Shown: positions 6,401-60,337 of the stretch, in pieces
How positions within the stretch are numbered: position 1 is the first letter of the stretch
Layout: each line of letters opens with the position of its first letter
From: Pseudanabaena sp. Chao 1811
GTDB taxonomy: Bacteria; Cyanobacteriota; Cyanobacteriia; Pseudanabaenales; Pseudanabaenaceae
Direction: 5' to 3'
DNA: 64,000 nucleotides
Assembly: GCF_027942295.1 (NCBI RefSeq)
Contig: NZ_CP101416.1
Span: 4,078,501-4,142,500 of the forward strand
Made by a program: the position numbers and the translations under genes
The notes under the pieces: model-generated
Databases searched by the model: none
What the model saw: the letters and a program-made list of their open reading frames with translations, nothing else
Told to the model about the DNA's origin: nothing

Positions 6401-7246
6401 ATGGCGATCGCATTTAGTAAATATCACGGCTTAGGTAATGACTTTGTATTGATTGATAACCGTCATAGCGCTGAGCCAATCCTCACACCAGAGCAATCAA
6501 AAAAATGGTGCGATCGCAATTTTGGCATCGGTGCAGATGGCGTAATCTTCTTGCTAAATGCTGATAATGGCGAACATCGGATGCGAATCTATAACTCCGA
6601 TGGTTCCGAACCAGAAATGTGCGGGAATGGAATTCGCTGTTTAGGTAAATTTATGCAGGATTTGGGAATCCCCACCATTGACGGCAAATATCCCATTCAC
6701 ACAGGTGCAGGCTTGATCGTGCCTCAAATGGATGCTGATGGACAGGTAACTGTAGATATGGGCAAGCCATTTTTGACTGCTGCCGAGATTCCCACCACTT
6801 TGGGCGAAAGCGATCAAAAAGTAGTCAACCTTCCCCTCGAAGTCGGTGGCAAAACTTGGAATGTGACCACTGTAAGTATGGGCAATCCCCACTGCATGAC
6901 CTTTGTGGATGATGTTGATAGTATTCCCTTAGCCGAAATCGGCGTTCTCTTTGAACATCATCCCGTATTCCCTAATCGTACAAATACTGAATTTGTGGAA
7001 GTCGTCAATCGTGGCTATGTCAAAATGCGCGTATGGGAACGTGGCGCTGGCGCAACCCTCGCCTGTGGAACAGGAGCCTGTGCCACCGTCGTTGCAGGAG
7101 TCTTAAATGATCTCTGCGATCGCACCTGCACCGTAAATCTCCCTGGAGGCGATCTCAAGATTACTTGGTCAGCCGAAAGCGATCGCATTTTGATGACAGG
7201 CCCTGCAAAACTAGTATTTACAGGCTCAGTTGTTAACGAATTGTAA
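6401..7246 (+). CDS. dapF: diaminopimelate epimerase
   Basis: 281 residues, full length for DapF. It interconverts LL- and meso-diaminopimelate, the lysine and peptidoglycan precursor, without a cofactor. Both catalytic cysteines are present in their motifs: Cys74 in MCGNGIRC and Cys222 in LACGTGACA. The N-terminal [15 protein letters not shown] is typical. ATG 6401 is the family start. A stem-loop with a T-run follows the stop directly. murD, another peptidoglycan precursor gene, is 0.5 kb downstream but separated by a palindrome and the HIT gene. Confidence 0.97.
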
Positions 7247-20016: not shown

Positions 20017-20165
20017 TAACGTCAGTTCGGGTTAAGCTGGCAAATTTTAACAGTCCAAAAGTAAAAGCCTTGCTAAGCAAGGCTTTTACTTTTAGTTTTT
20101 GAGAGAGGGTTTGCTACGCAAACCCTCTCTCAAAAAACGTTTCAAATTATCCCGAACTCGCGTTA
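20017..20165. repeat. TIR-bounded double-hairpin element, copy 1
   Basis: Begins TAACGTCAGTTCGGGTTAAG and ends in the complement of TAACGCGAGTTCGGGATAAT. Inside are two perfect hairpins: AAAAGTAAAAGCCTTGC-TAA-... and TTGAGAGAGGGTTTGC-TAC-.... Other copies are at 27382, 32051, 40866 and 55510. Confidence 0.88.
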
Positions 20166-27381: not shown

Positions 27382-27513
27382 AGAACTCGCGTTCGGGATA
27401 ATTTGAAACGGTATTTGAGAGAGGGTTTGCGTAGCAAACCCTCTCTCAAATACCAAAAGTAAAATTTTGCTTTTGGTATTTGAAAATTTGCCAACTTAAT
27501 CCGAACTGACGGT
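27382..27513. repeat. TIR-bounded double-hairpin element, copy 2
   Basis: Left AACTCGCGTTCGGGATAATT (partly scrambled end), hairpin TGAGAGAGGGTTTGC-GTA-..., a degenerate second hairpin (AAAGTAAAATTTTGC), right end complement of TAACGTCAGTTCGG with changes. More worn than the other copies. Confidence 0.8.
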
Positions 27514-31890: not shown

Positions 31891-32034
31891 AACCCAAGTT
31901 GCTACCTATTAAAAATCGGCTCAAAACAAGTTAAAAACAGCCTCGCTAAGTCCAAAATGACGCTATTTTTATATAAAAATCTAGCATTTTTTATTTTAAC
32001 TTTAGTCTTAAATGAATAGGTAGCAACTTGGGTT
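31891..32034. mobile_element. MITE-like element with 20-bp perfect terminal inverted repeats
   Basis: 144 bases with ends AACCCAAGTTGCTACCTATT and its exact complement AATAGGTAGCAACTTGGGTT, flanked by AAAT on both sides. The centre is AT-rich without an ORF. Structure fits a miniature inverted-repeat transposable element. No parent transposase with these ends is in the window. Confidence 0.82.
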
Positions 32035-32050
32035 AAATAGTTCTGTATAT

Positions 32051-32198
32051 TAACGCGAGTTCAGAATAATTTGAAGCGTTTTTGAGAGAGGGTTTGCTAC
32101 GCAAACCCTCTCTCAAAAACAAAAAGTAAAAGCCTTGCTTAGCAAGGCTTTTACTTTTTGTTTTTGAAAATTTGCTAGCTTAAGCCGAACTGACGTTA
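32051..32198. repeat. TIR-bounded double-hairpin element, copy 3
   Basis: TAACGCGAGTTCAGAATAAT to the complement of TAACGTCAGTTCGGCTTAAG. Inside are GAGAGAGGGTTTGC-TAC-... and AAAAGTAAAAGCCTTGC-TTA-... hairpins, both perfect. Reverse orientation relative to copy 1. Confidence 0.88.
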
Positions 32199-35149: not shown

Positions 35150-35264
35150 TAACGTCAGTTCGACGAAAGCGGAAAATGGTAAAAATCGCTAAGCGATTTT
35201 TACCATTTTCCGCCATTTGCGCGGCACTTCGCGCCGCGCAAATGGCGTTATCGAACTCACGTTA
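35150..35264. repeat. TIR-bounded double-hairpin element, sister type copy 1
   Basis: Ends TAACGTCAGTTCGA and the complement of TAACGTGAGTTCGA, like the main family. The inside differs: GCGGAAAATGGTAAAAATCG with centre CGC-TAA-GCG, then GCCATTTGCGCGGC / GCCGCGCAAATGGC. The only other copy seen is at 52492. Confidence 0.85.
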
Positions 35265-40865: not shown

Positions 40866-41014
40866 TAACGCGAGTTCGGGATAATTTGAAACTGGATTTG
40901 AGAGAGGGTTTGCTACGCAAACCCTCTCTCAAATCCCAAAAGTAAAAGCCTTGCTACGCAAGGCTTTTACTTTTGAGATTTTAAAATTTGCCAGCTTAAC
41001 CCAAACTGACGTTA
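40866..41014. repeat. TIR-bounded double-hairpin element, copy 4
   Basis: TAACGCGAGTTCGGGATAAT to the complement of TAACGTCAGTTTGGGTTAAG. Inside, TTTGAGAGAGGGTTTGC-TAC-... and AAAAGTAAAAGCCTTGC-TAC-... are perfect hairpins. It starts just after the pmbA stop. Confidence 0.88.
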
Positions 41015-52491: not shown

Positions 52492-52605
52492 AAAGTCAGT
52501 TCTAAGAAGGCGAAAAATGGTAAAAATTGCTTAGCAATTTTTACCATTTTTCGCCATTTGTGCGGCGCTTCGCGCCGCACAAATGGCGTTATCGAACTCA
52601 CGTTA
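52492..52605. repeat. TIR-bounded double-hairpin element, sister type copy 2
   Basis: Ends AAAGTCAGTTCTA and the complement of TAACGTGAGTTCGAT. Two perfect hairpins GGCGAAAAATGGTAAAAATT with GC-TTA-GC, and CGCCATTTGTGCGGCGC-TTC-.... Matches the copy at 35150. Confidence 0.85.
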
Positions 52606-53974: not shown

Positions 53975-55438
53975 ATGCATGAAATAGCTAGCAATTCAAG
54001 AATCCCGATCGCTTTAGTCTGGCATCGGCGGGATTTGCGAATTGATGATAATCCTGCTTTGAGTGAGGCGATCGCACAGGTGGGGGATCAAGGGATCGTG
54101 ATGGGTTTATTTATATTTGATCCCGATATTCTCGATGATGGTGTGACCGAGGGCAGCAAGGTTGACTTTATGCTCGGTTGTTTGCGCGAGTTGCAAGCCA
54201 ACTATCGACGTTTAGGCAGCGAATTGCTATTTATGTATGGACAGCCCGTGCAATCGATTCGTGAACTGGCGAAAGCAATTAATGCAAGTCATATCTTTTT
54301 TAACCAAGATGTCGAACCCTTTGCAATTAAGCGCGATCGCGAAGCAACTCAAGCTTTGCAAGAACTAGGCGTAAAGGTTCAGAGTTTTGTGGATATTGGT
54401 TTGATTGCTCCTGATGCGATCGCTACGCAATCAGGAGAACCCTACAAGGTCTACACCCCCTTTTGGCGCAATTGGCAAAGTAAACCAAAGCCTCAACCAT
54501 TCGCATCTCCTCAAAAATTAACAGGTTTAGCAGGTTTAGCAAGTTATGATAATTTGCCTGTAATTCCTTTACCAAGCTTGCGTGAACTCAAATTCATCAA
54601 TGACATTACCTTACCGAAAGTGGGCGAAGCCGCAGCTTTAGAACTATTAGAAACCTTTTGTGATGGTAATGGAATTTTGCGTTATCAAACGGAACGTGAT
54701 TTTCCTGCCCATGCGGGGACATCGACATTGAGTGCCCATTTGCGCTTCGGGACAGTTGGCATTAGAAGAGTATGGGAAAAAGCGATCGCGGCTGAGCAAC
54801 TAGTGCGTAGTGAAGAGGATGCCGCAGGAATTACTACATGGAAACAGGAACTAGCATGGCGGGAATTCTATCAGCATATTCTCTTTTACTTCCCTGAATT
54901 AGAAACAGGAGCCTATCGTCCCCAAATGCGAAACTTCCCTTGGGATGATGACGAAGAGAAATTTACTGCATGGTGTGAAGGTCACACGGGTTATCCGATT
55001 GTCGATGCAGCAATGCGGCAACTTAATCAAACAGGCTGGATGCACAACCGTTGTCGGATGATTGTCGCCAGTTTCTTAACTAAGGATTTGATAATTAATT
55101 GGCAATGGGGCGAACGCTATTTTATGCAGAAATTGCTAGATGGTGACTTAGCCGCAAATAATGGTGGTTGGCAATGGAGCGCATCTAGTGGCATGGATCC
55201 CAAGCCTTTGCGGATTTTTAATCCTGCATCACAAGCCCGCAAGTATGATCCAGAAGGTGAGTATATTTTGCGTTGGCTACCTGAATTGCAGGGATTGACT
55301 ACAGCCGAGCTTTTGAGTGGTAATATCCCGCCGCACCAATGCAAAAAACGTGATTATTCTCTACCGATTGTGGATCACAATATTCAGCAACAACGATTCA
55401 AGCAGCTCTATAAGGATTGTAAGGTTTTTCAAAACTAA
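53975..55438 (+). CDS. phrB: deoxyribodipyrimidine photolyase (class I CPD)
   Basis: 487 residues. N-terminal antenna-binding alpha/beta domain (IALVWHRRDLRIDDNPALSE) and C-terminal FAD-binding helical domain (WKQELAWREFYQHILFYFPE, GHTGYPIVDAAMRQLNQTGW, MHNRCRMIVASFLTKDLI, LDGDLAANNGGWQWSASSG). It reverses cyclobutane pyrimidine dimers with blue light. Antenna cofactor uncertain (8-HDF or MTHF). The last residues overlap a palindrome (55421-55473). Confidence 0.95.
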   Translation: MHEIASNSRIPIALVWHRRDLRIDDNPALSEAIAQVGDQGIVMGLFIFDPDILDDGVTEGSKVDFMLGCLRELQANYRRLGSELLFMYGQPVQSIRELAKAINASHIFFNQDVEPFAIKRDREATQALQELGVKVQSFVDIGLIAPDAIATQSGEPYKVYTPFWRNWQSKPKPQPFASPQKLTGLAGLASYDNLPVIPLPSLRELKFINDITLPKVGEAAALELLETFCDGNGILRYQTERDFPAHAGTSTLSAHLRFGTVGIRRVWEKAIAAEQLVRSEEDAAGITTWKQELAWREFYQHILFYFPELETGAYRPQMRNFPWDDDEEKFTAWCEGHTGYPIVDAAMRQLNQTGWMHNRCRMIVASFLTKDLIINWQWGERYFMQKLLDGDLAANNGGWQWSASSGMDPKPLRIFNPASQARKYDPEGEYILRWLPELQGLTTAELLSGNIPPHQCKKRDYSLPIVDHNIQQQRFKQLYKDCKVFQN

Positions 55439-55473
55439 AAATGGCGTAGCCATTTTTAGTTTTGAAAAACCTT
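55421..55473 (+). terminator. palindrome overlapping the photolyase stop codon
   Basis: AAGGTTTTTCAAAACTAAAA and the complement with centre ATGGC-GTA-GCCAT, perfect 25-bp stem. The final codons and stop (55436-55438) lie inside the left arm, so part of the arm is coding. Confidence 0.75.
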
Positions 55474-55509
55474 ACTGGGTTTGTTTTTTAATCCACGAAG
55501 GGGTAACAA

Positions 55510-55658
55510 TAACGCGAGTTCGGGATAATTTGAAACGGGCTTTTAGAGAGGGCTTGCGTAGCAAGCCCTCTCTAAAAGCCCAAAAGTAAAAGCCTTGCTT
55601 AGCAAGGCTTTTACTTTTGGGCTTTTAAAATTTGCCAGCTTAATCCGAACTGACGTTA
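55510..55658. repeat. TIR-bounded double-hairpin element, copy 5
   Basis: TAACGCGAGTTCGGGATAAT to the complement of TAACGTCAGTTCGGATTAAG. Hairpins TTTTAGAGAGGGCTTGC-GTA-... and CCCAAAAGTAAAAGCCTTGC-TTA-.... Perfect stems. Confidence 0.88.
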
Positions 55659-55686: not shown

Positions 55687-55728
55687 AAAGCAGCAGCCTT
55701 TGTGCCGTGACACAAAGACTGCTGCTTT
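55687..55728. terminator. hairpin between convergent repeat region and CNB gene
   Basis: AAAGCAGCAGCCTTTGTG / CACAAAGACTGCTGCTTT, 18-bp stem with one mismatch, just before the stop of the cNMP-binding gene (55730). Confidence 0.65.
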
Positions 55729-60166: not shown

Positions 60167-60308
60167 GTTACGTGGAACTAGGATCGCCCCTCATCCCCCA
60201 ACCCCTTCTCCTGCGGGAGAAGGGGAGTAAAACCCATATTTGTTTCTTGTTCCCCTCTCCTGCGGGAGAGGGGCTAGGGGTGAGGGCTTTAGAAGACTTC
60301 CACGTAAC
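60167..60308. repeat. TIR-bounded copy of the G/C-rich palindromic repeat
   Basis: The core 60184-60289 is the CCCCTCATCCCCCAACCCC ... GGGGCTAGGGGTGAGGG repeat with two CTCCTGCGGGAG hairpins. Outside lie inverted flanks GTTACGTGGAA (60167) and TTCCACGTAAC (60298-60308), suggesting the palindrome is part of a larger 142-base unit here. Confidence 0.8.
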
Positions 60309-60337
60309 ACCAGTATTTAGTGCTTCGCACCTAACAT

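Follow-up and report, generated by a model that had tools for sequence, protein, structure and literature searches.

The intergenic DNA at this locus raises two linked questions: what are the short double-hairpin units that recur between its genes, and why do their stems stay complementary as their sequences change? A preliminary description of the window (the whole stretch of 64,000 nt that was analysed) had pointed out five such units, with common ends, two perfect inner hairpins and positions between genes in both orientations. All five are present where it placed them, with 0–2 mismatches at both ends (0 expected from shuffled sequence), and their intergenic placement in both orientations is borne out. 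The double hairpin also stands, but it is not always perfect, the copy at 27384 having lost the centre of hairpin 2. The copies of this family, here termed MITE-A, are listed with their state in G021, a relative genome that is 93.95% identical across 150,078 aligned query bases.

20018–20164, minus strand: MITE-A copy, a 145-bp element (20019–20163) plus one target base per side, with hairpin 2 at about 20055–20095 and hairpin 1 at 20096–20136; site empty in G021
27384–27513, plus strand: MITE-A copy of 130 bp, centre of hairpin 2 deleted; common to G021, where the hairpin 1 loop is inverted
32052–32197, plus strand: MITE-A copy of 146 bp; common to G021, with the hairpin 1 loop inverted, a paired substitution and a paired indel
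40867–41013, plus strand: MITE-A copy of 147 bp; common to G021, where the hairpin 1 loop is the same and the hairpin 2 loop inverted
55511–55657, plus strand: MITE-A copy of 147 bp with the duplication AACAAT (TAACAATA at the shifted boundary); site empty in G021

A search of the whole genome with the ends (4,729,581 bp, a single contig) returned 73 left ends with at most 3 mismatches, versus none for the reversed pattern, which confirmed that the units form a genome-wide family. Of these left ends, 71 lay in stretches that were examined, and 60 of the 71 have a right end 60–270 bp away. The resulting 60 copies are too short for a transposase gene: 41 are exactly 147 bp long and the rest span 92–260 bp. 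Terminal inverted repeats (AACGNNAGTTCGGNNTAA) are found at both sides of the element, and GCGATCGC is frequent within the window. With one copy as the query, at least 41 near-full-length matches were found in the genome among the matches listed (40 of 145 candidates scored). In the public genome collection, the exact 22-nt left end was found in 20 stretches, every one from Pseudanabaena (the source genome's own records possibly being excluded), which together with the frequency of GCGATCGC makes a Pseudanabaena-type cyanobacterium the most likely source; MITE-A matches are present in 24 of 38 relative genomes, comprising all 23 of the genus (own genome included; several weak) and one weak match among the 15 outside it. 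The 54 rows for copies in relatives frequently give a unit once per strand and are not used as a copy number. Some copies are reduced. Those at L068, L101 and L108 have one hairpin, and a 65-bp copy (L038:3937–4001) has neither and looks as if it had been deleted between two direct GGGCTTT segments, with its 7-bp duplication intact. Two other MITE-A copies, L060:1811–2070 (minus strand, 260 bp) and L035:1277–1526, are split by inserts of another palindromic kind (ends TATAGC... and ...GCTATA), possibly a further MITE family.

That these units have inserted can be read from the DNA and need not be merely inferred, because they are flanked by target duplications and have empty sites in G021. Duplications of 6, 7 and 8 bp accompany 24, 11 and 5 of the 60 copies, respectively (40 of 60), versus at most 8 copies with a duplication of at least 6 bp when flank pairings were shuffled; one copy has a 4-bp duplication and 19 are without a duplication of 4 bp or more. 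The target flanks are TA-rich and approximate TANNTA. The outermost base per side is best assigned to the target duplication, which leaves ACG...CGT as the 145-bp element proper. With AACG...CGTT taken as the ends, the duplication would be a constant 4 bp, a reading that was dropped; shifting the boundary one base inward per side gives the 6–8 bp duplications and the ACG...CGT ends. Empty sites were found in G021 for two of the five window copies, 20018 and 55511, where the flanks overlap by 8 and 6 bp, respectively; the latter site shows two base differences from the duplicated sequence. The other three copies (27384, 32052 and 40867) are common to both genomes, and synteny around 55511 in G020 and G040 yielded no further empty sites.

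No transposase had been obvious in the preliminary description. The loci around the units bear this out, but elsewhere the genome carries two IS982 copies from a sister clade (clade 1), together with three weak matches (25–28% identity). The genome has 35 PF01609 matches, and among the 30 such loci examined a matching end pair is found in L133 and L134 only. Both are 1005-bp elements with ends AACGTGAGTTCGACG, and the product of L133 is a 303-aa IS982 transposase. The IS982 assignment rests on NF033520 (257 bits; cut-off 130) and PF13612. IS982 elements in the genus are about 1 kb long, and a survey gave a match in 19 of 26 genus genomes, with two groups prominent. Clade 1, whose full-length copies are 91–97% identical in G004, G017, G022 and G040, has GACG ends. 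Clade 2 (about 50–54% identical; G011, G018, G020, G038 and G039) has the ends GGGTTAA and GGGATAA, and this unequal end pair is common to clade-2 IS982 and MITE-A. At the clade-2 loci L164, L166, L181 and L183, 17 of 18 bases match MITE-A at each end; for L184 the figures are 17 and 16 of 18, and both ends of L167 equal the MITE-A right end at 18 of 18 bases. Clade-1 ends match at 11–13 of 18 bases. An end pair was found in 17 of 30 loci, 16 of which are distinct elements, and 12 of these 16 carry 6–8 bp duplications at the boundary seen in MITE-A.

Judged by these ends, MITE-A is a family of IS982-type MITEs and IS982 is the fitting transposase family; target duplications, empty sites and IS982 elements of the genus with matching ends together bear out the earlier suggestion of non-autonomous transposable units. 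The transposase with matching ends that the preliminary description called for is thus available as clade-2 IS982 in relatives, but the clade-1 copies of the source genome match at only 12 of 18 bases. We infer that a clade-2 IS982 enzyme moved MITE-A, and put it no more strongly because this better-matching clade was found only in relatives: the survey of 26 genus genomes gave no clade-2 copy in the source genome, and no autonomous copy with exact MITE-A ends was found there. In the loci examined from the source genome and its relatives, twenty end pairs lie 300–5000 bp apart, and none of the 15 that were checked (all except two in the window, one in L050 and two in L100) encloses an IS982-like reading frame. 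Since a MITE may persist after its parent is lost, the missing parent copy lowers only the claim of current mobility. In the mechanism that we propose, an IS982-family transposase would mobilise MITE-A in trans by recognising the ends ACG(C/T)(G/C)AGTTCGGG(A/T)TAA and would duplicate a 6–8 bp TA-rich target of approximately TANNTA. Because copies without one or both hairpins exist, the ends seem not to require the palindromic core.

The second question concerns that core. Between hairpins 1 and 2 lies a 7-nt junction (consensus AAAGCCC) able to pair with a GGGCTTT segment to its left or to its right; the junction belongs to both hairpins, which are therefore interdependent, and the covariation of the two alternative junction pairings is about equal. 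The three segments are concordant in 13 of 40 ungapped copies (a 41st was excluded for low identity); where a single segment is odd, it is the left arm in 14, the right arm in nine and the junction in one, and three copies show no agreement. The junction is thus the odd segment in just one of the 24 copies in which two of the three segments agree (p = 8e-4). Per site, the three outer segments diverge most from the consensus (13–14%) and the hairpin 2 core least (2%), with the ends (5–6%) and the hairpin 1 core (6%) in between. The hairpin 2 core has both-sided changes in 13 of 680 pairs and four mismatched pairs; among 560 pairs of the hairpin 1 core, 22 are changed on both sides and 23 are one-sided mismatches. 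Loop 1 reads TAC in 20 of the 40 copies and GTA in 14, forms that are reverse complements and three substitutions apart, and it is never TTA or TAA. Loop 2 reads TTA in 13, TAC in 10, GTA in eight, TAA in five, TAT in two and ATA in two copies; by itself it is no proof of inversion, because single steps connect its forms (TTA and TAA differ by one substitution).

Stem covariation was assessed in an alignment of 65 of the 73 candidate copies (143–153 bp). Both-sided change occurs at 25 of 38 pairs, versus 6.2 in shuffles, and in 96 cells, versus 11.0 in shuffles and 10–20 with slid partners; the observed values were reached in none of 500 shuffles. Several paired changes are common to 2–7 copies, and paired length changes are present also in L053 and L079. 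The earlier claim that compensating change keeps the stems is therefore correct as a description of the pattern (96 versus 11 cells), but the pattern is less likely to be caused by selection than by templated recopying, given that loops invert and arms change together in situ, also outside MITE units.

The evidence for this comes from orthologous hairpins in G021. At a threshold of at least 10 pairs, 38 hairpins were called in the window and 23 could be aligned: nine loops are exactly inverted, seven are the same (one of them palindromic and uninformative) and seven show other changes. Inverted loops outside MITEs were found in the hairpins at 7245, 7669, 27512, 31820, 41023, 55419 and 55687, two of which are as follows.

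55419–55475: ordinary gene-end hairpin, non-MITE; loop GTA here, TAC in G021
55687–55728: ordinary hairpin, non-MITE; 6-nt loop, CCGTGA here and TCACGG in G021, plus a paired change in the stem

Among the MITE-A copies, 32052 is the clearest shared copy for in-place change. Its ends are almost unchanged, while the hairpin 1 loop is inverted, a substitution and a 1-bp indel are paired, and the junction and both outer arms are altered together.

The comparison was extended to 264 kb (the window plus G000:C1:4142501–4342500), with strong hairpins defined as those of at least 14 pairs in noncoding or edge positions. Hairpins without an aligned ortholog (86 of 131) and low-identity rows (four strong, one weak, one coding) were excluded, and overlapping hairpins were reduced to one, whereby hairpin 1 of 32052 and hairpin 2 of 40867, both inverted, were dropped. 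In this small sample from one species pair, the 22 strong hairpins comprise 10 with inverted loops, three nearer inverted, four same, three nearer same, one tie and one uninformative, so that loops are inverted at least as often as they are unchanged; inversion occurs in MITE and non-MITE strong hairpins alike. Hairpins of 10–13 pairs (n = 11) gave six same, two inverted, one nearer same and two uninformative, and coding hairpins (n = 6) five same and one nearer same. The background is 33 inverted among 16,711 noncoding 3-mers outside hairpins (0.2%). Paired versus one-sided stem changes number 18 and 20 in strong hairpins, 0 and 8 in weak ones and 0 and 12 in coding ones (Fisher p = 8e-5, strong versus rest).

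Taken together, these data make it probable that a MITE family mobilised in trans by IS982 has had its hairpins homogenised and its loops flipped by replication template switching. After insertion, DNA polymerase would switch template at the palindrome, and each hairpin would repeatedly be recopied from itself, which would make the arms match again after mutation and flip the loop in place. As the junction belongs to both hairpins, changes would spread through it to the outer arms. We infer recopying from what orthologous sites show in situ, namely inverted loops together with substitutions and indels that are paired, and prefer template switching because it predicts both arm homogenisation and spacer inversion, whereas loop inversion is not a prediction of selection for pairing.

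The strongest competing explanation also takes the units as IS982-type MITEs but has their stems kept by selection, as a folded RNA or a bidirectional terminator, with the paired changes arising by two-step compensatory evolution. The strong covariation would suit it, as would the clustering of copies at gene ends. Of the 60 full copies, 26 lie in convergent, 20 in tandem and nine in divergent spacers, and five overlap a mechanically called frame; convergent spacers thus hold 26 of the 55 intergenic copies and make up 12.9% of the noncoding bases in the 264-kb stretch (p = 6e-10). Copies lie a median of 34 bp from a gene end and 182 bp from a gene start. This bias would be expected either if insertions upstream of genes are lost or if the units act as terminators. 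Beyond the exact loop inversions, selection does not predict that both arms of one copy acquire matching indels, nor that the junction should be the odd segment in so few copies. G.T mismatches (22) are not favoured over A.C (26), although this is a weak test of RNA-level selection because copies lie in both orientations. We therefore regard selection on the stems as unlikely.

The paired changes could instead date from a small number of master copies whose transposition spread them, with the hairpins kept only as a transposition aid. The recurrence of several paired changes in 2–7 copies is what such spread would produce, but in the three copies common to G021 paired positions, loops or both have changed in place, non-MITE hairpins behave likewise, and hairpin-less copies exist, of which the 65-bp L038 copy has an intact duplication; this origin appears quite improbable. 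The likening to REP units, in the form of REP/REPIN-type elements moved by a RAYT (an IS200/IS605-like tyrosine transposase), agrees with the intergenic, palindromic, multicopy units in both orientations but is scarcely credible given their target duplications, long terminal inverted repeats and ends that match IS982, a DDE family; REP/REPIN-RAYT units are not known to make target duplications.

Template switching may act well beyond MITE-A. Long hairpins are dense here: the 264 kb hold 91 with 14 or more pairs, of which 40 are perfect, and 3-nt loops closed by GC predominate; Markov-1 random sequence gave none of that length. DNA mini-hairpins that have a GNA loop closed by GC are unusually stable. 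Loop centres are about as frequent as their reverse complements (GCAAAGC 10 and GCTTTGC 7; GCTTAGC 7 and GCTAAGC 7; GCGAAGC 7 and GCTTCGC 4; GCGTAGC 3 and GCTACGC 3). In E. coli, the only other genus looked at, 50 kb contain one hairpin of at least 14 pairs, too few for a control of loop inversion. A genus-wide reading, to which we give somewhat less than even credence, is that long palindromes of both MITEs and gene ends turn over fast by template switching, with loop orientation near equilibrium between sister species; covariation, usually taken as a sign of selected RNA structure, would then be mostly mutational, and junction-sharing hairpins would act as a copying chain.

How does this compare with known systems? 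Nezha belongs to a different transposase family from IS982. A review cites cyanobacterial MITEs such as Nezha, which by description only resemble MITE-A as short gene-less cyanobacterial repeats with terminal inverted repeats (PMC10969869). A closer counterpart is an IS982-derived MITE of about 240 bp in a Cardinium endosymbiont, which is present in many copies with IS982 inverted repeats (PMC9769881). Like MITE-A it is short, multicopy and transposase-less and has the ends of an IS982-family element; unlike MITE-A, for which the best-matching IS982 clade was found only in relatives, it shares its genome with the parent IS. The MITE-A core consists of two long palindromes sharing a junction, whereas the text on the Cardinium element makes no mention of hairpins (PMC9769881). 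Homogenisation of inverted repeats by template switching has been described for yeast genes (PMC8604942) and RNA genes (PMC8794818), where, as here, arms are homogenised, several paired changes occur at once and the loop (spacer) is exactly inverted. Loop inversions are few in the cited parts of these studies, with 10 events in yeast coding sequence (PMC8604942) and 69 loop-only cases in RNA genes (PMC8794818), whereas here inversion distinguishes about half of the strong noncoding hairpins of two 94%-identical genomes, and two hairpins are linked by one segment. We found no report of a Pseudanabaena MITE or a Pseudanabaena IS982 in the open-access papers searched, most subscription papers being outside our scope. 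The MITE kind and the template-switch mechanism are thus already known; what stands out is the extent of flipping and the junction common to two hairpins.

An abundant orphan repeat is now tied to a transposase family, and its dozens of copies, with the gene-end hairpins at orthologous sites, provide a natural test set for telling kept from selected structure. If the behaviour proves wider, covariation at DNA palindromes would by itself be insufficient to establish a functional RNA, and the orientation of loops could serve as a clock for template switching.

The window also holds a sister family, B, whose ends resemble those of clade-1 IS982 (12–15 of 16 bases) and for which at least 40 near-full-length matches were found in the genome among the matches listed (40 of 192 candidates scored).

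35151–35263, plus strand: family B copy with double hairpin, ends AACGTCAGTTCGACG / AACGTGAGTTCGATAACG, like clade-1 IS982
52492–52604, plus strand: family B copy; empty site in G021, flanks overlapping by 7 bp

Two other segments are absent from G021. About 142 bp (31892–32033) lie beside the 32052 copy, and a unit at about 60168–60308 has the ends TTACGTGGAA / TTCCACGTAA and inner CCCCTCTCCTGCGGGAGAGGGG repeats, with about 166 bp (60171–60336) missing from the relative.
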